Source: Gammaproteobacteria bacterium (GTDB lineage: Bacteria; Pseudomonadota; Gammaproteobacteria; Steroidobacterales; JABDLF01). Taken from it: DNA of 38,210 nt. Shown here piece after piece: positions 24,185 to 38,210 of the stretch (position 1 is the stretch's first letter; each line of letters opens with the position of its first letter). A program made the position numbers and the translations under genes. Below the pieces are notes generated by a model that was given only the letters and a program-made list of their open reading frames with translations, made no database searches and was not told the origin of the DNA. The stretch covers positions 1-38,210 of the forward strand of contig JABDLF010000006.1 of the NCBI GenBank assembly GCA_013003115.1. Reading direction: 5' to 3'.

Positions 24185-25306
24185 ATGAGCGATAACAAGG
24201 GAAGCGGGCTGCGCGGAATCAACGCAGGCTCCACCAGTATTTGCAGCGTCGGCGCAAGCGGCGACGGGCTGCACTACCGCGGCTACGATGTCGAAGAGAT
24301 GGCTGAGGACGGCAGTTTTGAAGAAGTTGCCTATCTGCTGCTCTACGGAGAATTGCCCGACAAGGCGCAGCTGAGTGCTTACCGCGAGGCGCTCAAGGAA
24401 AAGCGCGGCTTACCGGCTGTCCTCAGGGAGGTTCTCGAGAAGATTCCTGCAGGCGCGCACCCGATGGACGTCCTGCGCACCGGTTGTTCGATGCTTGGCA
24501 ACCTCGAGCCCGAAGGCGATTTTAAAAACCAGGACCGCGTGGCCGACAGGCTGCTCGCCAGCATTCCTTCCATGATGGCCTACTGGTACCGTTTTGCGCA
24601 TGACGGTAAGCGCATCGATACTGAAACGGACGATGACTCAATGGCGGGCCACATCCTCAGGATGATCACCGGGCGCGAGGCACCTGAGGAACACCGCCGA
24701 TACATGGACGTTTCACTCATCCTGTACGCGGAGCACGAGTTTAATGCCTCGACGTTTACCGCCAGGGTAATAGCAGCCACGCTCTCGGACATGCACTCGG
24801 CGGTGACGGGCGCGATTGGTGCGCTGCGCGGCCCCTTGCACGGCGGTGCCAACGAGGCGGCAATGGAGCTCATCGAGAAATTCAAGACCCGCGAGGAGGC
24901 GCGCGCGGGCGTCGAGGCGATGCTGGCGCGCAAAGAAAAAATTATGGGCTTCGGTCACGCAGTCTATAAGCTCAAGGATCCGCGCAACGCCATTAACAAG
25001 AAGTGGTCGAAGATTCTGTCGGCCGATGCTCCCGATGCGTATCTCTATGATGTGTCCGACGTTATCGAAAAAGTCATGCAGGACGAAAAGAAGCTGTTTG
25101 CCAACGCCGACTTCTTCAGCGCGTCCGCTTACCATTTTATGGGCGTGCCAACACCGCTTTTCACGCCCCTTTTTGTATGTTCACGAACCAGCGGGTGGTG
25201 TGCGCATATTAAAGAGCAGCGCGCGGACAACAAGCTGATCAGGCCGGGCGCTGAGTATATTGGGCCAGGGCCCAGGCCGTTTATCGAACTAAGCAGCCGC
25301 GGCTGA
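24185..25306 (+). CDS. prpC: 2-Methylcitrate synthase PrpC
   Basis: The 373-residue citrate-synthase family protein condenses propionyl-CoA with oxaloacetate. Catalytic residues are visible as His219 (GPLHGGANEAA), His258 (GFGHAVYKLKDPR) and Asp309 (ANADFFSA). The short length and the N-terminal GLRGINAGSTSICSV segment favour methylcitrate synthase over the larger housekeeping citrate synthase. It starts at ATG 24185, 18 bp after prpB, with GGGAG upstream. Confidence 0.95.
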   Translation: MSDNKGSGLRGINAGSTSICSVGASGDGLHYRGYDVEEMAEDGSFEEVAYLLLYGELPDKAQLSAYREALKEKRGLPAVLREVLEKIPAGAHPMDVLRTGCSMLGNLEPEGDFKNQDRVADRLLASIPSMMAYWYRFAHDGKRIDTETDDDSMAGHILRMITGREAPEEHRRYMDVSLILYAEHEFNASTFTARVIAATLSDMHSAVTGAIGALRGPLHGGANEAAMELIEKFKTREEARAGVEAMLARKEKIMGFGHAVYKLKDPRNAINKKWSKILSADAPDAYLYDVSDVIEKVMQDEKKLFANADFFSASAYHFMGVPTPLFTPLFVCSRTSGWCAHIKEQRADNKLIRPGAEYIGPGPRPFIELSSRG

Positions 25307-25327
25307 TAACAAAAAAGGAAACGACTT

Positions 25328-26776
25328 ATGTCCGGCGCAGATATTCGTATCGCCAATCGACCCGATCCCGATAAAGAGCTGCTTGCGATCGCAGAATACG
25401 TTTCAGGGTTCAGCGCTGACGGAGACGTGGCGCGCAGCACAGCCCGGTATTGCCTGATGGATACGCTGGCCTGTGCGTTCCAGGCGCTTGACTATCCGGC
25501 CTGTACGAAGCTGCTTGGCCCAGTGGTGCCGGGGGCTACGCTGCAGGGCGGCGCACGAGTGCCGGGTACGGCCTATGAACTCGACCCCGTAAACGCGGCC
25601 TTCAATATTGGTGCGCTCGTGCGCTGGCTGGACTTTAATGACACCTGGCTCGCCGCTGAGTGGGGCCACCCGTCAGACAACCTCGGCGCCATTCTCGCGC
25701 TGGCAGATTATCTGAGTCGAACGCGCGTGGTGGAGGGCGGCGATTCCCTGACGGTCGGTGACGTACTGACAGCGATGATCAAGGCGCATGAAATTCAGGG
25801 CGTTATCGCGCTGGAGAACAGCTTTAATCGCGTTGGTCTTGATCACGTGCTGCTCGTGCGCATTGCATCGACGGCTGTTGCCACCGACATGCTTGGAGGG
25901 AGCCGCGACCAGATTGTGAATGCCGTTTCCAACGCGTTCATTGATGGCGGCGCGCTGCGCACCTACCGCCACGCGCCCAATACGGGATCGCGCAAGAGCT
26001 GGGCGGCGGGTGACGCAACCAGCCGCGCCGTTCGGCTGGCACTTATCGCCATGCGCGGCGAAATGGGTTATCCGTCGGCGCTGAGTGCCAAGACCTGGGG
26101 TTTCTCCGATGTGTTGTTCAAAGGTCGACCCCTGTCGTTCTCTCAACCCTACGGCAGCTACGTGATGGAGAACGTGCTGTTCAAGATTTCGTATCCCGCT
26201 GAGTTTCACGCCCAGACAGCGGTGGAAGCCGCGATGAGCCTGCACGCGAGTGTGCGCGACCGCATCGAGGACATAGATCGAATCGTGGTTGAGACGCAGG
26301 AACCCGGCGTACGCATCATCGACAAGATCGGGCCGCTGGATAACCCGGCGGACCGCGATCACTGTCTTCAATACATGATTGCGGTGCCGCTTGTCTTTGG
26401 GCGCCTTACCGCCGCCGACTATGAAGACGATGTGGCCAGCGATCCGCGCATCGATATACTGCGTGAAAAAATGCAGGTCACGGAAAACAAAACCTTTACG
26501 GAAGAATATTTCGCTGCGGACAAGCGCTATATCGGCAATGCTATCCAGGTTCACTTCAAAGACGGGACAGCCACCGAACGGGTGCACGTGGACTATCCAA
26601 TCGGGCACCGCAAGCGTCGTGAAGAGGGCATTCCCGTGCTGGTAGAGAAGTTCAAATCCAGCATTGCCGGCAAGCTTTCCGACAGCCAAGTCGAGAGCCT
26701 CACCGAACTGTTTGATGACCAGGCGAAGCTGGAGCGATTCCCGGTCACCGAGTTCATGTCGCTGCTGGTTCGCTAA
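25328..26776 (+). CDS. prpD: 2-Methylcitrate dehydratase PrpD
   Basis: The 482-residue MmgE/PrpD-family protein dehydrates 2-methylcitrate to 2-methyl-cis-aconitate without an iron-sulfur cluster. Characteristic are the opening [40 protein letters not shown] (about residues 98-123), and the [13 protein letters not shown] stretch in the middle. It starts at ATG 25328 with AAGGA upstream, 21 bp after prpC. No prpE, prpR, acnD or prpF follows, so propionyl-CoA must come from elsewhere (for example AcuI) and hydration is probably by a housekeeping aconitase. Confidence 0.95.
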
Positions 26777-26862
26777 GATCGATTAGTTTCGCCGCGGGAA
26801 CGCCCGCTTCGCACGGCGGTCATAGTGAGACTCGTCTTTAGTGCGAATCCCGGAGCCAGATT

Positions 26863-28482
26863 ATGAACGCCGCTTTTTGGAAAGGTAAGCGTCTCCCTCT
26901 GATGATCCTGGCCTTCCTCGGCGCCGGCACTGTTTCGGCCTGGTTTTTTTCCTCGATGAACACCCGGGCAGCTTCGCCGCAGGCGCAGCCGTCCTATGCG
27001 GGCGAGGATCCGGCCCCCGAGTTTCCCGAAGGTCTTGACTGGATCAACACCGGTGGCAAGCCGCTGAGTATAGAGGGCCTGAGAGGAAAGGTGATCTTGC
27101 TCGACTTCTGGACCTTTGGCTGCATTAACTGCATTCATATCATCCCGGATCTCAAGAAGCTCGAGGCGAAATACGGCGACGCGCTGGCCGTTATTGGCGT
27201 ACACAGCCCGAAGTTTGACCACGAGAAAAAGACCTCTGCCGTGAGAAAAATAACCATGCGCTACGACCTCGAGCATGCCGTGGTCAACGATCGCGACATG
27301 CGTATCTGGCGCAGCTATGGTGCCCGCGGCTGGCCGCATCTTGCACTGATTGATCCGGAAGGCCGACTGATCGGCGCCGTCTCCGGCGAAGGTCATTACG
27401 ACCTGCTTGATCGGGTTATTGGCGGCGCGATTCGCCAGTTTGAAAAGGAAGGAAAAATAAACCGCGCGCCCGTTGCGCTCGTGCTCGAGAAATCACTGCT
27501 CAAAGACTCGAAGCTCCTGTTTCCGGGGCGCGTGCTGGCCGACGGAGTAAGCAAGCGGTTGTTCATTGCCGACACCAATCATGACCGCATTGTTGTCACG
27601 GATCTGGACGGCGAGGTCACCGCGGTTATCGGTTGCGGGACTGCGGGTCTCGCAGACGGAGACTTCAAGGCCGCAGAGTTTTTCCGGCCGCAAGGTCTTG
27701 CGTTAGCAAGCAAGGACACTCTTTACGTGGCCGATACGAAGAACCACGTCATCCGCAAAGTTGATCTTGCGGCAGAAAAAGTAAGCACCGTTGCGGGCGT
27801 TGGCAGGCAGGTATACCAGACCAGCGACTCGGGACCCGCAGCTACGACGGGCATGAACTCGCCGTGGGGGCTGCTCTACCATGACGGGCTTTTGTATATC
27901 GCAATGGCCGGCCAGCATCAGCTGTGGATTTACGATCCGGCGCAGCAAGAGCTGCGCGAGTACGCCGGCTCGCGCCGCGAAGAGCTAAAAGACGGGAGGC
28001 TGCTTAGTGCCGGGCTGAACCAACCCAGTGGTCTCGCAACGGACGGTGAGTATATCTACGTTGCTGACAGCGAGGCGAGCGCAATCCGGGCTGCCGATAT
28101 CGACCCTGACGGCAAGCTCGATACCATCGTTGGCCAGGGTTTGTTTGCTTTCGGTGATATAGACGGGCGCGGCGACAAGGTAAGGCTGCAGCACCCGAAA
28201 GACCTCGTGTGGTGGGAAGGAAGCCTGCTGGTTGCCGACACCTACAACAGCAAGATCAAACGTATTAATCCGGCTACCCGTGAGAGCCGGACGCTCATAG
28301 GCAGTGAGGCCGAGCTTGATGAGCCTGGTGGCGTCAGCCTGCTGGGCGACACGCTCTTTATCGCCGACACCAACCGCCACAGGGTAGTTACGTTTGATCT
28401 GCCAAAGGGAGAGGCGAAGGCGCTTGCGATTAGAGATCCTCAGGGCCTGCTGGAGTCAGAAAAACCCGATAATAGCCTCTAA
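26863..28482 (+). CDS. Membrane-anchored thioredoxin-like / NHL-repeat protein
   Basis: The 539-residue protein has an N-terminal hydrophobic anchor (residues 11-30), a thioredoxin-like domain with CINC (Cys87 and Cys90 in WTFGCINCIHIIPDL), and a C-terminal beta-propeller with about five NHL-type repeats, recognisable by FIADTNHDRIV, YVADTKNHVIRKVD, LLVADTYNSKIKRINP and FIADTNRHRVV. The architecture resembles NHLRC2-type proteins. It probably faces the periplasm; a disulfide or scaffold role is inferred. The ATG at 26863 has GGAG about 7 bp upstream. It lies 86 bp after prpD with its own upstream region, so it may or may not belong to that operon. Confidence 0.87.
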   Translation: MNAAFWKGKRLPLMILAFLGAGTVSAWFFSSMNTRAASPQAQPSYAGEDPAPEFPEGLDWINTGGKPLSIEGLRGKVILLDFWTFGCINCIHIIPDLKKLEAKYGDALAVIGVHSPKFDHEKKTSAVRKITMRYDLEHAVVNDRDMRIWRSYGARGWPHLALIDPEGRLIGAVSGEGHYDLLDRVIGGAIRQFEKEGKINRAPVALVLEKSLLKDSKLLFPGRVLADGVSKRLFIADTNHDRIVVTDLDGEVTAVIGCGTAGLADGDFKAAEFFRPQGLALASKDTLYVADTKNHVIRKVDLAAEKVSTVAGVGRQVYQTSDSGPAATTGMNSPWGLLYHDGLLYIAMAGQHQLWIYDPAQQELREYAGSRREELKDGRLLSAGLNQPSGLATDGEYIYVADSEASAIRAADIDPDGKLDTIVGQGLFAFGDIDGRGDKVRLQHPKDLVWWEGSLLVADTYNSKIKRINPATRESRTLIGSEAELDEPGGVSLLGDTLFIADTNRHRVVTFDLPKGEAKALAIRDPQGLLESEKPDNSL

Positions 28483-28830
28483 AAACACCGAAAAATACGC
28501 GATCTTCTGAAAAAAACGTAATTCTGCGCGTTGCGAGCCGGGTTTAATAAACAGGCGGCCGGCTGATGCTCGCAGGACGATCAACGCCTGCCAGAGCCGC
28601 GAACAGGGCAACACCCCGGTTTTCCGGCGCGGTGCAGAAAACGGCGTCCCCGCTTAGTGAGTGAATTCCGGGGCTTACGCGCGCAAATGCCTCGAAAAGC
28701 TGACAATTTGCGTCACATTTGGCCGATAGCCGCGCCAGCACGCGTGAAACAGTCGGATATTTCCTGCCTAAATCGGCCATTTTTCATTGAACCCATTGAT
28801 TTCATTTGTGATGTGGTCGGCATTCAAGGC
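28483..28830. other. Intergenic region before the sigma-54 promoter
   Basis: This is 348 bp with no convincing gene. No clear terminator hairpin follows the NHL gene. A TGAC-N7-GTCA palindrome lies at 28701-28715. A 78-codon minus-strand frame covers much of the region but has no recognisable domain and a weak start. Confidence 0.5.
28701..28715. promoter_or_regulatory. Possible activator palindrome upstream of the sigma-54 promoter
   Basis: TGACAATTTGCGTCA is an inverted repeat TGAC-N7-GTCA. It lies about 130 bp upstream of the sigma-54 promoter, a common distance for enhancer-binding activators. Only one copy is seen, whereas such sites often come in pairs. Confidence 0.3.
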
Positions 28831-28846
28831 GGGCATGATTCTTGCA
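28831..28846 (+). promoter_or_regulatory. Sigma-54 (RpoN) promoter
   Basis: GGGCATGATTCTTGCA matches TGGCAYG-N4-TTGCW at every defined position except the first. The GG (28832-28833) and GC (28844-28845) elements are separated by exactly 10 bases. Transcription would start near 28857, about 205 bases before the TTG start of the large surface protein. Confidence 0.75.
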
Positions 28847-28862
28847 ATATGTTATGCCAGGC

Positions 28863-28927
28863 CGGACAGCGGTCCGCAGGAAAGCCCGGGAAAGCATCCC
28901 GGCCAGCCGAAAGCCAGCATTTCGGTT
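28863..28927 (+). ncRNA. Structured leader: three consecutive hairpins
   Basis: Three stems follow one another just after the predicted transcription start: CGGAC-AGCG-GTCCG (28863-28876), CCGGGA with TCCCGG (28886-28902), and AGCCGAAA with TTTCGGTT (28905-28927, 8 bp with one G-U pair). The motif AAAGC occurs three times in the interval. No T-run follows the last stem. It could be a riboswitch, a protein-binding leader or a stabilising 5' end; I do not recognise a known class. Confidence 0.45.
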
Positions 28928-28951
28928 GTTGCAAAAAGGGGCGCGAGGAGC

Positions 28952-29065
28952 ATGAAAAATGATATTCGACTAAGTGCCAGGCCACGGCAACCGGGAAGCG
29001 CCATCTCGCGCTTTTTCTCCTTGGCCCCCTCCGTTTCAGACAAACAAGCCGGGGTTCTCTTTTGA
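28952..29065 (+). CDS. Possible 37-residue leader peptide overlapping the surface-protein start
   Basis: The ATG at 28952 follows GAGGAG, though at unusually short spacing. The frame encodes 37 residues (MKNDIRLSARPRQPGSAISR at the start) and stops with TGA at 29063-29065, overlapping the TTG start of the large protein by three bases (TTGA). Such an overlap allows translational coupling. The peptide has no known domain. Alternatively it is the true N-terminus, joined to the large frame by a frameshift or a sequencing error. Confidence 0.35.
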   Translation: MKNDIRLSARPRQPGSAISRFFSLAPSVSDKQAGVLF

Positions 29066-32000
29066 GCCTGACCGGCAAAAAACTGACTGACATCCTGCGC
29101 AACATCGTAGTCACCGGTGTTTGCTGTTTCCTTGGCAGCACTGCCGGCGCGAATCCTGACCTGCCGAACCCGTCACCGACACCGCAGGTGATTCCGTCGG
29201 GATCACTCATCATCCCGATGGACAACGACAAGCAGAATCTTGGCGGGCTCGATTTCAACCTGACGGCGTACGGCCTTGCCACGCATCTGCTGCACGGCGG
29301 TGTTCCGCTCAAGTGGGCCATCACGGCGGGCAAGGCCAAAGATGGCATCGATTTCAACGCTGAGTCGCGCCAGCTTTATCCCAGCGCCGGCGCAACCGCG
29401 TTCCGCGACTTTCGCGGCGGGCCGTTTATCGTCCATCGGGACTTCGTGGGTCTTGCCACACCGATCATCACATCTTTTGCCAACAGCGTTGTGGTGCACG
29501 AGCTGACGCAGGATGCGACTGTAGATGTGCGCTACGAGCTTCTGAACAAGCCCAAGGTCGCTGTTTTTGACGATGGCGGCAAGGCCGACGTGCATGGTGA
29601 CGTGCTGCTTGAAGCAGGCTTTGTCGAAAATGTTCACTACGAAGTCATTTCTGCAGCAACTCTCGCCACCATTAACGCTGACGCATGCTTCACCTTTGGT
29701 TCAGAGCCGCACTGGAATGAAAATCCAGACGATCCTTTAGTGGATACTGCGGCCGAAGCCATCCGCCAGTTCGTAAACGGCGGCGGCAACTTCCTGGCCC
29801 AGTGCGCCGCCATCGAAACTTATGAGAACAACTCGGCTTTCGGATTGTTCAAGTCAACCGATGGCATCGAGGTGGACAACACGGGCAATGAGCTGTTTGA
29901 CTACGCGAACCCGGATCTCTCCTACAGTCAGTTTGAGGGCGCGCTAGATGCAGGCGGCGGCAGTGTCAACGACTGGGTACTTTTGCCGCCGGCACCCCCC
30001 AACGTCTGGCGCGGCGCAACGCAGTTCCACGCACAGAATATCCCGGCACCCCAGCAGATTGCCGCTTCGGCCACCAAGCTCACCGCTGGCACCGGGTCGC
30101 TGGTCTATTACCTTGGCACCCATTCGTTCGGCGACAAGAGTATTGAAGAAATCAACGGCCGGCGGATGTACCTCAATGCGGTGATGACGCCATCGGGTCG
30201 GCCGACATCGTGCAACCTGGCCATCATCATTGCGGACATTTCCGGCACGGTTTACGAAGAACTGAATGGCGATTCGCTCCTCGGCGACTCGATAGGAGCA
30301 CCCGGCGTCAACGTGCGCATTTACGCTGACGTCAACGACAACGGCGTCGTGGATGCCGGCGACTCGTTCTTCTCCGAACAAACCACGGATGCCTCAGGCA
30401 ACTACAGCTTCACGGTGTCGACCGATGCAAGCGGCGCCCGTTTCCTGGTTGCCGTTGATTCAAAATCCGTGGCGCCAGCGGCAGCTTTGAACGGAGGCTT
30501 TACGCAGGCGAATGTCTGGGCTGAGCAGACCTATGGCGACGATCCGGCGACGCTGGCCCTTGACGTCAGCTCCCGTTTTGGCGGCCGCACCGCAGGCGTG
30601 TCGGACAGTTTTAACTCCGCTGACACGGGCCCTGCGGCAAACAGTTATCAGCACGTTGGCCGGGCAGACGTCATTGCCGGTGACGTTACTGGCCTGGACT
30701 TTGCTTTTTCGTTCAACGTCCAGACCAACGTGCGCGACGGCGATGACGATGGCGGTGCTGCAAGGAGCGTTCAGGGATCGCTGCGCCAGTTTGTTCAAAA
30801 TGCCAATGCACTGAGCGGGGCAAACGCGCTGCGCTTTGTGCCTGCGGTCGCTGCAAACAGCGGGTCCTGGTGGACGGTTGCGTTGACAGGCACGCTGCCT
30901 GCAATAGCGGACGGCGACACAACGATCGATGGTCGCGCCTACGATTTTGCGGACGGCATTTCCGTTGTTGATACCAATCTCGGCACCAGTGGCAATACTG
31001 AGGTTGCCGGCCGGGATGTTGGTGCGGGCCCGGACGGGCGCGAGGGCACCGGAGACGAACCGCAGTTGCCGAACTATTTCCGGCCGGAGCTCGAAATTGA
31101 TGTCAATGATCAGGGCATCGGCTTCGAGTTTGCCGGCAACAACGGCACGATCGCGCGCGTCGCGATATTCAACCTTCTTGGCGGTGATGACGCCGTGCTG
31201 TTCAGTGGCGGCGGAAGCGGCGGCCTGGCAACGGAGAACTTCATCGGACTCAGGGCCGACGGCAGCGACCCGGATCTGAGTCTGGCCGGCACTCGGGTGG
31301 AGGGCGGCGGCATCTATGTAGATACCGGTGCCGCAAACGTGATCAATAACTTCATCGGATTCACCGGTGACGCCGCCATCCAGGTTGCCAACACGAGCCT
31401 TGTGGAAGGAAACGAGGTTTATCGTGCTGGCCTGGAGTCAGAGAATGACGACGGCATTACGCTGGAGGGTTCGAACGGGCAGACGATCACGGTTCGCGAG
31501 AACCGGGTATTCGCCGCAAATGCTTATGGCATCGAGAGCTGGCAGGCAGGTGGTCCTTTCACCATCGAAGACAATTCCGTCATCGATAGCGGCCAGCTGG
31601 ACATAGCAACTGGCGAAATCGGCGGCATCCGGGTCTTCGGCAATGGCAGCGTCGTGCGACGAAACGTTATCAAGGGCTCTCAAGGCGCCGGCCTCGTTGT
31701 CTCCTATGGCACTAATTTGGCGGCGCCTTCGCAGCAGAACCGGATCAGTCGGAACGTCATCTACAATAACGGCGGCCTCGGCATTGATCTGGATCAGCTC
31801 AACACCAGCGGTAACCCGAACGGCGATGGTGTTTCCGTCAATGATGGCGCAACGATTGCGGCAGACCAGAACGCCGGCTTTGATTTTCCAGTCCTGCTCG
31901 AGGGGCGCGTTACAGCGACGGATCTCGTGCTCGATGGGTTTGCGCGGCCGGGCGCGGTCATCGAATTGTTTATTGCCGGTGTTGATGCGAGCAACTTCGG

Positions 32001-35000
32001 CGAAGGCCAGGCGTACCTGATAACGATCACCGAGGGCGGCAGCGGCGCAGGCGGCAATGACCCGGTTGCCGACTCAGATGCCGGTACGGGCAGCTACACG
32101 AATCCGGTAAACGGGCTGAACCAGGGCGCGGACGCCAGTGCCAATCGCTTCCGCTTTACAATTCCCCTGGCGACCCTCCCCGGAGTTGCCGCGGGAACAG
32201 TTCTTACTGCCACCGGTCGTGATGGCGCCAACAACACCTCTGAGTTCAGCGGCAACCTGACGCTAGTCGAGGAATTTCCGCCGGTGGCCAACGACGACAG
32301 CGCGGGCACCGAACTGGATACGCCGGTGGCCATCGACGTCCTTGTCAACGACACGGATGCGAACGGAGATGCCCTGACTATCATCGCCAGCGATAGCCCC
32401 ACAGCGAATGGCGGTTCCACAGCAGTCAATGATAACGGCACACCGGGCGATTCTGCTGACGACTATATCGACTATACGCCGCCACCGGGCTTCTCGGGTG
32501 CTGACACGTTTACGTACACCATCAGCGATGGCAGAGGCGGGACGGATACTGCGACGGTGACTGTATCCATGAGTGCCTTCAGCATTTCCGGCACGGTTTA
32601 CAACGACAGCAATGACAACGGTTTGCTGGATCCGGGCGAACAGGGCGTCGGCAACCAGGCGTGGATCAAGCTTATCGACGCAGGCACGGGTTCTGTGATT
32701 GATGCTGTACAGGGTGATTTCAGCGAACCTGGTTACACCGGCAACTTCTCGTTCGATGGTCTGACAAGCGGCGACTACGAAATCATTGTCGATGACAATG
32801 ATGATCCTCTGGATGACATTGCTACGCCGCCGCTCAACTGGAATTTTCGCAATCCCGGCCCGGCCGGCTATCCGGTTGCAGTAACCGTCGCTGGTGCTGA
32901 CGTGTCTGGCCAGGAACTGGGGCTGACATTTGATCTGTCCAGCGCCTGCGCATGCGGTCTCGGGGACGGACTGATGACCCAGACCAGCATCACTATTGAC
33001 GGCGACATGACCGACTGGGCGTCGGTGCTAAGCGACCTCGATAACAACGCCTGCGATGAGGTCGGCGCCGGTGACCGTGACGCTCCGGTGCAGTCAACCG
33101 GGCGCGACATGATTCGAACGACTGTGACCTGGACCGCATCGCGATTCTATATGTTTACAGCGCGAGCCGCGTCCACCAATAACACCCAGAATTACATCTA
33201 TTACGGGGACACCAACAACAACGGATTCATGGAGAATGGCGAGACCGTTCTGGTGGCGAAGTGGAGCGGCAACACCGGCACGGTTGTGTTTGAGCGTTAC
33301 ACTTATATTGCTGTAGATGCAGTCAACGGCGATCCTATGGTCGATGGCAGCGGGTTTTCAGATGGCTATACGATTCCTGGCTACCTTAACTTTGTTGAAA
33401 CGCTGCCGGCGGCAGACGCAGTTGGCAGCACAAGCGGACCGAGTAACGGCGTTCAGATGGAATGGGCCATTGACTGGGCCAAGCTGGGCGCATCGCCGGA
33501 AACCGCCATTCGCTGGCACACTTCTTCAACAAATTCCAATTCTTTCGAGATTCCTAATCTTCCAAACCAGATCGATGACAACATGGGCGGCTGCGGTGGC
33601 CGTTGTTCGGGCTCTAACCAATACGCGTCGATAACACCGACCCCGATCAACGTAGTAGCCGGTGATCCGACTTACCTTGTTCACCAGTTCACCAACTCCG
33701 GCAACGGCACTGACGTGTTTGATCTGACTTCCAGTTCGGTGGGCGACTGGTCGCCGGCCTCGTACACTTATTATCGTGATCTCGGCACGGTCGGCGCCTT
33801 TGACCCTGCCGATGTGCTCCTGACCGACACCAACGGCAACAGCGTTCCGGACACGGGCACCCTCGCGCCATTCGAGGTTTTCGATCTGCTTGTGGCCGTG
33901 GCGCTGCCACCCTCGCCCGCCGTCGGAGATGCGACCGTCACTACCACCGCAGAGTCAAATTTCCAGCGAGAATGTGGCGCGCTGCCGAGTCAGCCCAGCG
34001 GCAGTATTGATAATGACCTGAACATCCCGGGCGCTGATATCGCCGTTGCCAAGACTGACGGGCTCGTCAGCGCAGTTCCGGGCCAGACGATCACTTATAC
34101 GATCACAATAACCAACGCGGGCCCGGACAGCGGAACCGGTATCCAGGTCAGCGATACCTTCGATCCGTCGGTATTTGACGTCGCGTCGGTCAGCTGGACC
34201 TGTTCGATAGCGGGCGTAGGTACCTGCGCAGATTCAGGTCCGACAGCGGGGAATATTTCCACGACCGTCGATCTGGACAGTTCGGCGGTCGCCACGTTTT
34301 CGGTAACTGCGCCAACGCTCACGGACGCTACTGGCACGGTGTTAAATACAGCTACGGCAACGGTTATCAATGAACGGGACCCGGATTCCGGTAATAACAC
34401 GGGCACTGATAACGATACCGTACTGGCACCGACCAGCGACCTTTCGCTCTCCAAGTCGGTGGACAACCCGACACCTCAGGCTGGCGAGACCATTGTTTTT
34501 ACTCTGACGCTCAATAACGGTGGACCCAGTGCTGCGACTGGCGTCGAGGTAACCGATCAACTGCCGGCGGGGTATACCTATCAGAGCGATGATGGCGGTG
34601 GAAGTTACGCACCCGCAACCGGCGTATGGACCGTAGGCGACCTCGCCGCCCCGGGTTCGGCCGGCCTGAACATTACCGTGACTGTGAATGCAGTTGGCCC
34701 TTACGAAAACGTGGCAGAGGTCACCGCATCGGATTCCGCGGATCCCGATGCGACGCCAGGAAATGGCGACCCTGCAGAAGACGATTACGCTTCTAATACG
34801 CCCGCAGTAAACAGATCACCGGTAGCCAACGATGACACGGCCAGCACAGCGACGGATTCGTCAATTGCCGTTGATGTGCTGAGCAACGATACAGACGCCG
34901 ACGGTGATCCGCTCACCATTACCGCCAGCGACAGCCCCACGGCAAATGGTGGCACCACGGTGATCAACGACGGCGGCACACCGGCGGACCCTTCAGACGA

Positions 35001-38000
35001 CACCATTGACTACACGCCGGCCGCGGGCTTCGCCGGCAGTGACACGTTCACGTACACCATTTCCGATGGCAACGGCGGTTCGGATACAGCCACCGTCACG
35101 GTGACGGTGAACAATGCGGCTCCGGTGGCCAACGATGACAGCGCGAGTACCAATACGGACACGTCGGTGAACATCGATGTCCTGGCAAACGACACGGATG
35201 CCAACAGCGATCCGCTGACCATCACAGCATCAGACTCGCCGACGGCCAACGGTGGCACCACGGTCATCAATGACGGCGGCACACCGGCGGACCCAAGTGA
35301 TGACACTATAGACTACACGCCGGCCCCGGGCTTCGCCGGCAGCGACACGTTTACCTATACGATTGACGATGGCAACGGTGGTTCGGACACGGCTACGGTA
35401 ACCATCACCGTCAACAACGCCGGGCCCGTGGCCAACGACGATGTGGCCAGCACCAACACGGACACCGCCGTCAACATCGACGTGCTGGCCAACGATACGG
35501 ATGACAACAACGATCCGCTGACCATTACTGCTTCTGATTCACCTACGGCCAACGGTGGTACGACGGTGATCAATGATGGCGGTACGCCGGCCGATCCATC
35601 GGACGACACCATTGATTACACGCCGGCGGCAGGCTTTGCCGGCAGCGACACGTTCACGTACACGATTGACGATGGCAACGGCGGGTCGGACACGGCTACG
35701 GTCACGGTAACGGTCGACAACGCGCCGCCGGTCGCCAATGACGATGGCACAACGACGCCCACCGACACGGCGGTCAACATTGACGTGCTGGCCAATGACA
35801 CGGATGCCAACAATGACCCGCTGACCATCACTGCTTCGGATTCCCCCACCGCCAACGGCGGCACTACGGTGATTAACGATGGTGGTACGCCGGCGGATCC
35901 CAGTGACGACACTATTGATTACACGCCGGCCGCAGGTTTTGCCGGCAACGACACGTTCACGTACACCATAAGCGATGGCAACGGTGGTTCTGACACCGCC
36001 ACCGTTACGGTGACAGTAAATAACGCGCCGCCGGTGGCCAATGATGACGGAACGACGACGCCCTCGGATACGGCGGTTAACATCGACGTGCTGGCCAACG
36101 ATACCGACGCCAACAATGACCCACTTACCATTACTGCCAGCGACAGCCCCACCGCCAACGGCGGCACGACGGTCATAAATGATGGCGGAACCCCGGCCGA
36201 TCCGTCCGATGACACCATCGACTACACCCCGGCGGCAGGTTTCGCCGGCAGCGACACGTTCACGTACACGATTGACGATGGCAACGGCGGGTCGGACACG
36301 GCGACCGTCACCATCGGGGTCAACAACGCCGCGCCGGTGGCCAACGACGATGCGGCGAGCACCGACACCAACACGGCCGTCAACATCGACGTCCTGGCCA
36401 ACGACACCGATGCCAACAGCGACCCGCTGACCATTACTGCGTCGGACTCACCGACCGCTAACGGCGGCACTACGGTCATCAACGACGGCGGTACGCCCGC
36501 CGACCCATCGGATGACACCATCGACTACACGCCCGCGGCAGGCTTCGCAGGCAGCGACACGTTCACGTACACCATTTCCGATGGCAATGGCGGTTCGGAC
36601 ACAGCCACTGTCACTGTAACGGTGAACAATGCTGTTCCGGTGGCCAACGACGACAGCGCGAGCACCAACACCGACACGGCGGTGAACATCGACGTCCTGG
36701 CCAACGACACCGATGCCAACAATGACCCGCTGACCATCACTGCCAGTGACAGCCCGACGGCAAATGGTGGCACCACGGTCATCAATGATGGTGGTACCCC
36801 CGGCGATCCTTCAGACGACACCATTGACTACACGCCGGCGGCAGGCTTCGCGGGCAGCGATACGTTCACGTATACGATCAGTGATGGCAACGGTGGCAGC
36901 GATTCAGCCACGGTCACGGTTACGGTGAATAATGCCGGGCCGGTGGCCAATGACGATGTGGCCAGCACCAACACGGACACGGCGGTCAACATTGACGTGC
37001 TGGCCAATGATACCGATGCCAACAATGATCCACTGACCATTTCCGCATCAGATTCTCCGACGGCAAATGGTGGCGCCACGGTCATTAACGATGGCGGCAC
37101 CCCGGCCGACCCGAGCGATGACACCATTGACTACACGCCGGCGGCGGGCTTTGCCGGCAGCGACACGTTCACGTACACCATTTCCGATGGCAACGGTGGT
37201 TCGGACACGGCAACCGTCACAGTGACAGTAAATAATGCTGCACCGGTGGCCAACAATGACAGCGCGAGCACCAACACCAATACTCCCGTTAGCGTCGACG
37301 TGCTCGCCAACGATGTTGACGCTAATAGCGACCCTCTGACCATAACAGCATCAGACTCGCCCACGGCCAACGGTGGCGCCACGGTTATAAACGATGGCGG
37401 TACCCCTGCTGATCCATCCGACGACACCATCGATTACACACCCGCTGCAGCATTCAAAGGCAGCGACACGTTTACGTATACGATTGAAGACGGTGAGGGC
37501 GGCAGCGACACGGCAACCGTCACCGTGACGGTGAACAATGCTGTTCCGTTGGCCAACGACGATGCGGCCAGCACCAACACGGACACTGCGGTCAATATCG
37601 ATGTACTGGTCAACGACAACGATGCCAACAACGATCCACTGACCATTACCGCTGCCGATGATCCGAGCGCGAACGGCGGCAAGGTCACCATCCTGGACAA
37701 TGGCACGCCAGCTGATCCCTCTGACGATCTTATCGAGTACAAGCCGGCCGCGGGTTTCGCCGGCGTTGACACATTTACCTACACGATTAGTGATGGTGAT
37801 GGTGGCAGTGACACGGCCACCGTCACAGTGACGGTGAACAACGCAGCACCGGTTGCCAACGACGATGCAGCGAGTACCAACACTAACACCGCCGTCAATA
37901 TCGATGTGCTGGCCAACGACGCCGATGCCAACGGCGATCCGCTGACTATTACTGCGAGCGACAGCCTCACCGCCAACGGCGGCACCACGGTCATTAATGA

Positions 38001-38210
38001 TGGCGGCACCCCGGCCGATCCAGCTGATGACACCATTGACTATGCGCCGGCGGCAGGCTTCGCCGGCAGCGTCACGTTCACGTACACCATTTCCGATGGC
38101 AACGGCGGTTCGGATACAGCCACCGTCACTGTAACGGTGAACAATGCTGTTCCGGTGGCCAACGATGACAGCGCGAGTACCAATACCGACACGGCGGTCA
38201 ATATCGATGT
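29062..38210 (+). CDS. Giant Sec-exported surface protein with Big_9 repeats (3' end missing)
   Basis: An unbroken frame of at least 3049 codons runs off the window. Residues 1-30 form a signal peptide (GKK, then IVVTGVCCFLG, cleavage after AGA). Residues 31-390 include a Rossmann-like part (KVAVFDDGG near 165, GGGNFLAQC with Cys248) recalling class I amidotransferase-like folds. Then come an SdrD-B/carboxypeptidase-like module (about 393-470), a predicted parallel beta-helix opening with GSLRQFVQNAN (about 570-980), one Big_9-type domain (1074-1170), a second SdrD-B module (1176-1260), a DOMON-like region (IDGDMTDWASV, about 1310-1515), two DUF11 domains (from about 1659 and 1793), and the tandem repeats from residue 1920. 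The likely role is adhesion, matrix or surface structure. TTG 29062 is the only plausible in-frame start near the signal peptide; GGGG lies 7 bp upstream. The sorting signal (PEP-CTERM, type I secretion or other) is beyond the window. Confidence 0.88.
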   Translation, partial: MSLTGKKLTDILRNIVVTGVCCFLGSTAGANPDLPNPSPTPQVIPSGSLIIPMDNDKQNLGGLDFNLTAYGLATHLLHGGVPLKWAITAGKAKDGIDFNAESRQLYPSAGATAFRDFRGGPFIVHRDFVGLATPIITSFANSVVVHELTQDATVDVRYELLNKPKVAVFDDGGKADVHGDVLLEAGFVENVHYEVISAATLATINADACFTFGSEPHWNENPDDPLVDTAAEAIRQFVNGGGNFLAQCAAIETYENNSAFGLFKSTDGIEVDNTGNELFDYANPDLSYSQFEGALDAGGGSVNDWVLLPPAPPNVWRGATQFHAQNIPAPQQIAASATKLTAGTGSLVYYLGTHSFGDKSIEEINGRRMYLNAVMTPSGRPTSCNLAIIIADISGTVYEELNGDSLLGDSIGAPGVNVRIYADVNDNGVVDAGDSFFSEQTTDASGNYSFTVSTDASGARFLVAVDSKSVAPAAALNGGFTQANVWAEQTYGDDPATLALDVSSRFGGRTAGVSDSFNSADTGPAANSYQHVGRADVIAGDVTGLDFAFSFNVQTNVRDGDDDGGAARSVQGSLRQFVQNANALSGANALRFVPAVAANSGSWWTVALTGTLPAIADGDTTIDGRAYDFADGISVVDTNLGTSGNTEVAGRDVGAGPDGREGTGDEPQLPNYFRPELEIDVNDQGIGFEFAGNNGTIARVAIFNLLGGDDAVLFSGGGSGGLATENFIGLRADGSDPDLSLAGTRVEGGGIYVDTGAANVINNFIGFTGDAAIQVANTSLVEGNEVYRAGLESENDDGITLEGSNGQTITVRENRVFAANAYGIESWQAGGPFTIEDNSVIDSGQLDIATGEIGGIRVFGNGSVVRRNVIKGSQGAGLVVSYGTNLAAPSQQNRISRNVIYNNGGLGIDLDQLNTSGNPNGDGVSVNDGATIAADQNAGFDFPVLLEGRVTATDLVLDGFARPGAVIELFIAGVDASNFGEGQAYLITITEGGSGAGGNDPVADSDAGTGSYTNPVNGLNQGADASANRFRFTIPLATLPGVAAGTVLTATGRDGANNTSEFSGNLTLVEEFPPVANDDSAGTELDTPVAIDVLVNDTDANGDALTIIASDSPTANGGSTAVNDNGTPGDSADDYIDYTPPPGFSGADTFTYTISDGRGGTDTATVTVSMSAFSISGTVYNDSNDNGLLDPGEQGVGNQAWIKLIDAGTGSVIDAVQGDFSEPGYTGNFSFDGLTSGDYEIIVDDNDDPLDDIATPPLNWNFRNPGPAGYPVAVTVAGADVSGQELGLTFDLSSACACGLGDGLMTQTSITIDGDMTDWASVLSDLDNNACDEVGAGDRDAPVQSTGRDMIRTTVTWTASRFYMFTARAASTNNTQNYIYYGDTNNNGFMENGETVLVAKWSGNTGTVVFERYTYIAVDAVNGDPMVDGSGFSDGYTIPGYLNFVETLPAADAVGSTSGPSNGVQMEWAIDWAKLGASPETAIRWHTSSTNSNSFEIPNLPNQIDDNMGGCGGRCSGSNQYASITPTPINVVAGDPTYLVHQFTNSGNGTDVFDLTSSSVGDWSPASYTYYRDLGTVGAFDPADVLLTDTNGNSVPDTGTLAPFEVFDLLVAVALPPSPAVGDATVTTTAESNFQRECGALPSQPSGSIDNDLNIPGADIAVAKTDGLVSAVPGQTITYTITITNAGPDSGTGIQVSDTFDPSVFDVASVSWTCSIAGVGTCADSGPTAGNISTTVDLDSSAVATFSVTAPTLTDATGTVLNTATATVINERDPDSGNNTGTDNDTVLAPTSDLSLSKSVDNPTPQAGETIVFTLTLNNGGPSAATGVEVTDQLPAGYTYQSDDGGGSYAPATGVWTVGDLAAPGSAGLNITVTVNAVGPYENVAEVTASDSADPDATPGNGDPAEDDYASNTPAVNRSPVANDDTASTATDSSIAVDVLSNDTDADGDPLTITASDSPTANGGTTVINDGGTPADPSDDTIDYTPAAGFAGSDTFTYTISDGNGGSDTATVTVTVNNAAPVANDDSASTNTDTSVNIDVLANDTDANSDPLTITASDSPTANGGTTVINDGGTPADPSDDTIDYTPAPGFAGSDTFTYTIDDGNGGSDTATVTITVNNAGPVANDDVASTNTDTAVNIDVLANDTDDNNDPLTITASDSPTANGGTTVINDGGTPADPSDDTIDYTPAAGFAGSDTFTYTIDDGNGGSDTATVTVTVDNAPPVANDDGTTTPTDTAVNIDVLANDTDANNDPLTITASDSPTANGGTTVINDGGTPADPSDDTIDYTPAAGFAGNDTFTYTISDGNGGSDTATVTVTVNNAPPVANDDGTTTPSDTAVNIDVLANDTDANNDPLTITASDSPTANGGTTVINDGGTPADPSDDTIDYTPAAGFAGSDTFTYTIDDGNGGSDTATVTIGVNNAAPVANDDAASTDTNTAVNIDVLANDTDANSDPLTITASDSPTANGGTTVINDGGTPADPSDDTIDYTPAAGFAGSDTFTYTISDGNGGSDTATVTVTVNNAVPVANDDSASTNTDTAVNIDVLANDTDANNDPLTITASDSPTANGGTTVINDGGTPGDPSDDTIDYTPAAGFAGSDTFTYTISDGNGGSDSATVTVTVNNAGPVANDDVASTNTDTAVNIDVLANDTDANNDPLTISASDSPTANGGATVINDGGTPADPSDDTIDYTPAAGFAGSDTFTYTISDGNGGSDTATVTVTVNNAAPVANNDSASTNTNTPVSVDVLANDVDANSDPLTITASDSPTANGGATVINDGGTPADPSDDTIDYTPAAAFKGSDTFTYTIEDGEGGSDTATVTVTVNNAVPLANDDAASTNTDTAVNIDVLVNDNDANNDPLTITAADDPSANGGKVTILDNGTPADPSDDLIEYKPAAGFAGVDTFTYTISDGDGGSDTATVTVTVNNAAPVANDDAASTNTNTAVNIDVLANDADANGDPLTITASDSLTANGGTTVINDGGTPADPADDTIDYAPAAGFAGSVTFTYTISDGNGGSDTATVTVTVNNAVPVANDDSASTNTDTAVNID
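34819..38210 (+). repeat. Tandem 303-bp protein-coding repeats (Big_9/cadherin-like)
   Basis: Units begin at 34819, 35122, 35425, 35728, 36031, 36334, 36637, 36940, 37243, 37546, 37849 and 38152, each exactly 303 bp apart: 11 complete units and the first 59 bases of a twelfth. Each encodes 101 residues of the form PVANDD, then NIDVLANDTDANNDPLTITA, SDSPTANGG, INDGGTPADPSDDTIDYTPA, AGFAGSDTFTYTI, DGNGGSDTATVTVTVNNA. Asp-rich loops suggest calcium binding. The unit at 37546 is the most diverged (AADDPSANGGKVTILDN). A single more distant copy lies earlier at 32281. Confidence 0.95.

Follow-up and report, generated by a model that had tools for sequence, protein, structure and literature searches.

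The giant gene and its leader

The stretch of DNA analysed here (the window, 38,210 nucleotides) is contig C103 of the assembly G000, which comprises 2.17 Mb and is 82% complete. Genes for a citrate synthase, an MmgE/PrpD protein and a thioredoxin/NHL-repeat protein (24185-28482) are followed by a long intergenic region and a giant gene that runs off the contig (Table 1). The giant protein has a signal peptide-like N-terminus, SdrD-like and beta-helix parts, DUF11 and more than 10 Big_9/cadherin-like repeats. These repeats, near-identical and of about 98 aa each, fill the region from about 34700 to the contig end at 38208, and the assembly probably broke on them. The N-terminal domain of about 350 aa (29152-30219) is conserved and matches no Pfam family; homologues occur in Gammaproteobacteria, Eisenbacteria and many Bacteroidetes. 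A low-confidence structural model of this domain (mean pLDDT 60.6) yielded no PDB match at E ≤ 0.001 and gives only weak hints of a flavodoxin/amidotransferase-like fold.

A search with the N-terminal domain identified locus L044 of a Lysobacterales genome (G396) as the closest homologue (73% identical), followed by L043 from the same order as the window (53%) and by L045 from the Eisenbacteria genome G397 (47%). Distant homologues were found mainly in Bacteroidetes. Around G396 and G397, further homologues were all distant, and the one inspected (G408) did not have the hairpin 2 element described below. An MmgE/PrpD-like gene, recognised by eye, lies directly upstream in L044, and the gene order seems partly conserved.

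Table 1. Features of the giant gene and its upstream region in the window.
Feature	Position	Strand	Remarks
Enhancer (UAS) CTGACAATTTGCGTCACATT, dyad TGAC-N7-GTCA, probable PilR box	28700-28719	+	matches the pilA upstream site at 20/20 bases
IHF-like site, one mismatch to WATCAANNNNTTR	28789-28801	-	between enhancer and promoter; weak consensus, inferred
Sigma-54 promoter GGCATGATTCTTGC (-24/-12)	28832-28845	+	predicted start about 28857; TTCTTGCAATAT kept in L044
Hairpin 1, CGGAC-AGCG-GUCCG	28863-28876	+	L044 columns pair: CGGGA-AUGC-UCUCG
Hairpin 2, CCGGGA-AAGCA-UCCCGG	28886-28902	+	conserved core CGGGAAAGCATCCC at 28887-28900
Hairpin 3, CAGCCGAAA-GCCAGCA-UUUCGGUUG	28904-28928	+	predicted fold only
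37-codon leader ORF, probably not functional	28952-29065	+	sequence has no counterpart in L044; Shine-Dalgarno too close to the ATG
Giant secreted surface protein	29062-38208	+	3,049 codons, open at contig end

Promoter and enhancer upstream of the giant gene

An initial annotation of the locus had proposed a near-perfect RpoN promoter with 10-base GG/GC spacing. The gap in GGCATGATTCTTGC is indeed exactly 10 bases, and the -24/-12 context fits TGGCAY/TTGCW. The consensus score by itself does not set the promoter apart: the score is shared by seven sites in the window, and some sites within coding regions score as well as this promoter alone. The promoter is supported because TTCTTGCAATAT is conserved in the homologue L044 and an enhancer site lies upstream. 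Both rpoN and enhancer-binding proteins are encoded in the G000 genome. From these sequence features, sigma-54 control of this costly surface protein is well supported.

The enhancer site CTGACAATTTGCGTCACATT precedes the promoter of the giant gene by 131 bases. In the intergenic region between pilR and pilA, the same CTGACAATTTGCGTCACATT occurs about 135 bases upstream of a second sigma-54 promoter, GGCACGGCCTTTGC, so that the upstream regions of the giant gene and pilA have an exact match of 20 bases in common. In resampled sequences, the longest shared stretch never exceeded 13 bases in 3,000 trials. The core pattern TGACNNNTTNCGTCAC is present twice in the whole G000 assembly, upstream of pilA and of the giant gene only. 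In G396 it occurs once, before the giant homologue, where the box differs from that of the window at 5 of 20 bases. The distance between enhancer and promoter is similar at all three sites, with about 131 bases in the window, 133 in L044 and 135 at pilA. These sequences, their spacing, the sharing with pilA and the conservation in the homologue are direct observations. At both the giant gene and pilA of G000, an IHF-like site with one mismatch lies between enhancer and promoter.

In G000, pilS-pilR is located directly upstream of pilA, and pilS, pilR, the pilin gene, pilB and pilC were confirmed by Pfam. TGAC-N7-GTCA dyads also occur upstream of the pilA promoters in two genomes of the same order (G062 and G009), at distances of about 125 and 222 bases. 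No pilA promoter was found in G396, and sharing of the enhancer between giant gene and pilA was seen in one genome only, G000. Among the giant-family loci, enhancer plus promoter are retained at two, the window and L044; they were not recognisable at the other homologues inspected (G062, L055, L056 and G408). At locus L112 (8241-9396), two closely related tandem pilin genes lie behind pilS-pilR, and the enhancer and the sigma-54 promoter were seen only before the first of them.

Leader hairpins and the overlapping reading frame

Three adjacent stems had been proposed about 6 bases past the predicted transcription start, and these can form (Table 1). They are not unusually stable (z of -1.1 to -1.6 against dinucleotide shuffles), and evidence for their relevance therefore has to come from comparison, which rests on three leaders (the window, L044 and L045), too few for a covariation test. 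The core of hairpin 2, CGGGAAAGCATCCC, is identical at 14 of 14 bases in L044 and near-identical, one base shorter, in L045. The pattern GGGAAAGCAYCC occurs exactly once each in G000, G396 and G397, in every case on the sense strand of the leader of the giant homologue. The leaders have otherwise diverged, and resampling gave a shared stretch of at least 12 bases in only 0.4% of trials. In L044 the loop is exact and the outer pairs are lost. Upstream of the giant genes of the window and L044, CGGGAAAGCATCCC and TTCTTGCAATAT, the latter in the -12 region, are the longest shared stretches and appear in the same order at nearly the same spacing; the remaining upstream sequence is hardly alignable.

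A gapless alignment of window and L044 anchored on hairpin 2 places two compensatory pairs and one change from G-C to G-U in hairpin 1. Shuffling the differing columns produced an equally good helix in about 5% of trials (p ~0.05; two sequences), and this covariation is suggestive only. Hairpin 3 could not be aligned, although hairpin 2 is followed by a further hairpin in L044 and L045 as well. Of the three stems, then, comparison of the leaders indicates clear conservation for hairpin 2 only. The Eisenbacteria leader contains no recognisable sigma-54 site; hairpin 2 may therefore be independent of the promoter or partly a product of chance.

In line with the earlier view that the leader is not recognisable as a known RNA class, an Rfam search returned no match at the gathering score, and permissive thresholds gave chance matches only. 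BLASTN of the leader against 196 genomes likewise produced short chance matches only; the one at G000:C22 was discarded as lying inside a coding sequence. When 396 genomes were searched for a sigma-54 site combined with GGGAAAGC, the other matches did not extend into the hairpin, and the second match in the own genome (C41) runs into a coding start. With its tandem hairpins at the extreme 5' end, one of which has an invariant loop, the leader is reminiscent of structured 5' leaders such as riboswitches, stabilising 5' hairpins and CsrA sites. In contrast to those, the present element matches no Rfam family, has no conserved canonical CsrA loop GGA and was seen only at homologues of one gene. 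Between hairpins 1 and 2 lies an AGGA, which was rejected as a CsrA site because L044 does not keep it. Also rejected was the idea that hairpin 2 forms part of a conserved upstream peptide, since the reading frames disagree between homologues.

Hairpin 2 might instead act as a DNA operator: in double-stranded form, the imperfect palindrome CCGGGA-N5-TCCCGG at about +30 would be the binding site of, for instance, a repressor. A dyad near a promoter fits this possibility, and three sequences cannot separate a DNA from an RNA reading. We nevertheless regard it as doubtful: the outer arms vary around an asymmetric, invariant centre AAAGCA, the dyad in L045 is shorter by one base, no second copy exists in G000, G396 or G397, and the adjoining hairpin 1 carries compensatory changes. 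A role of hairpin 2 at the RNA level is the reading we prefer. A more far-reaching proposal appears unlikely at present: hairpin 2 (CGGGAAAGCAYCCCG, together with the stems beside it) would represent a novel cis-regulatory RNA class that accompanies this family of giant surface proteins across phylum boundaries, in both Gammaproteobacteria and Eisenbacteria, and that, in addition to control by PilR, senses or binds a factor by means of its invariant AAAGCA loop.

Downstream of the hairpins, the 37-codon ORF noted by the initial annotation was confirmed: it extends from ATG 28952 to a TGA (29063-29065) that overlaps TTG 29062 of the giant frame, which exceeds 3000 codons. The same overlap of TGA and TTG occurs in L044 and L043 and would suit translational coupling of the giant gene to the leader ORF. 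However, the leader peptide is not conserved in sequence in L044, the frame ending at the overlap has no start codon in L043, and the giant homologue of L044 may start at GTG 2326. The ATG of the leader ORF is too near its Shine-Dalgarno sequence (0-1 base past it), and a well-spaced ATG (28959) opens a frame of 4 codons only. As the giant's TTG is preceded by its own modest Shine-Dalgarno sequence, CGGGG, coupling is not needed. We consider coupling quite unlikely, and from the sequence the leader ORF and its overlap are probably incidental. A fusion of leader ORF and giant frame by frameshifting was also rejected: the giant gene is read in the -1 frame, and in that frame CTC TTT TGA, judging from the sequence, allows only poor re-pairing. 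Of the layered control that had been suggested, sigma-54 and a conserved leader element are retained and the coupled start is not favoured.

PilR as candidate activator of the giant gene

Because the 20-base site is identical at pilA, its core pattern is absent elsewhere in G000, and the Lysobacterales homologue keeps a similar site, promoter and spacing, PilR would most likely be the activator of the giant gene. G000 encodes further regulators, namely PspF, NtrX- and NtrC-like proteins and flagellar FlrB/FlrC-like genes, and sigma-54 control might be exerted by a flagellar FlrC-type protein or by the PEP-CTERM regulator PrsR. A connection to PEP-CTERM proteins or exopolysaccharide had been raised initially. 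In proteobacteria, PEP-CTERM genes are often preceded by sigma-54 promoters; ahead of such genes, Haft et al. described a motif ending in TTTACA (motif 1) followed by a sigma-54 site (motif 2), with PrsK-PrsR as the regulatory pair (PMC1569441). The window resembles that arrangement in having a surface-protein gene, a long intergenic region and a sigma-54 promoter. It differs in that the interval from 28483 to 28832 has no TTTACA motif 1, the 82%-complete genome yielded no EpsH exosortase, and none of six activators tested reached the PrsR cut-off (TIGR02915, 502.6; best score 382.4); the C-terminus of the giant protein, where a PEP-CTERM sorting signal would be expected, lies off the contig. 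These results give the PEP-CTERM connection no backing. Together with the identity of the giant's enhancer to that of pilA, which speaks against PrsR and FlrC alike, they make another activator very unlikely. Elsewhere in G000 (L077, 1501 onwards, minus strand; G000:C41:8721-8790), a sigma-54-like site, GGCATGTTTGTTGC, has TTTACA stretches upstream, and the gene behind it resembles an AAA-type ATPase with an FHA domain.

It is scarcely credible that the conserved blocks have no function and stem simply from a recent common ancestry of gene and flank: the upstream gene of L044 resembles the MmgE/PrpD gene of the window and the locus may be inherited together, but only enhancer, promoter and hairpin 2 stand out from barely alignable sequence, and the enhancer recurs at pilA.

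We therefore favour, with a probability of roughly 0.74, a model in which the region 28700-29065 comprises a sigma-54 promoter and a PilR enhancer that drives it, the giant gene is co-expressed with type IV pili, and hairpin 2 is probably an element acting at the RNA level. Phosphorylated PilR, from the PilS-PilR system that would also activate pilA, would bind TGACAATTTGCGTCA, which lies about 131 bases ahead of the -24 element. DNA looping, possibly aided by IHF, would bring PilR to the promoter, where it would remodel RNA polymerase-sigma-54, and transcription would start near 28857. PilR binding, looping, the start site and any function of hairpin 2 are what we infer from the sequence. The 5' end of the transcript would form small hairpins, of which hairpin 2 with its invariant AAAGCA loop would probably be read as RNA, as an element of post-transcriptional control or mRNA stability. 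Translation would most likely begin at TTG 29062 by means of its own weak Shine-Dalgarno sequence. Type IV pili and the giant adhesin-like protein would then probably be made together.

The arrangement matches PilS-PilR/pilA of Pseudomonas aeruginosa and others in its RpoN promoter, an enhancer 100-150 bases upstream and the adjacency of pilS-pilR to pilA, and the giant's enhancer is exactly shared with pilA of the same genome; in contrast, the target here is a giant adhesin-like gene. The dyad layout TGAC-N7-GTCA also differs from the TGT-N11-AGA with nearby GTCT elements in P. aeruginosa (PMC6058289). In P. aeruginosa and Dichelobacter nodosus, PilR is reported to control genes beyond pilA, in the latter including those for surface-exposed proteins (PMC6058289). 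The principle is thus known, and the giant gene would be a new member. PilR regulons have so far been mapped only poorly; the analysis contributes a candidate PilR box and, with it, a second target. If its function is shown, the conserved hairpin would constitute a new post-transcriptional layer. The link between pilus and giant adhesin is concrete and testable; if it is true, the pulling and the sticking apparatus of this metagenome-assembled lineage would be turned on jointly by a single two-component system.
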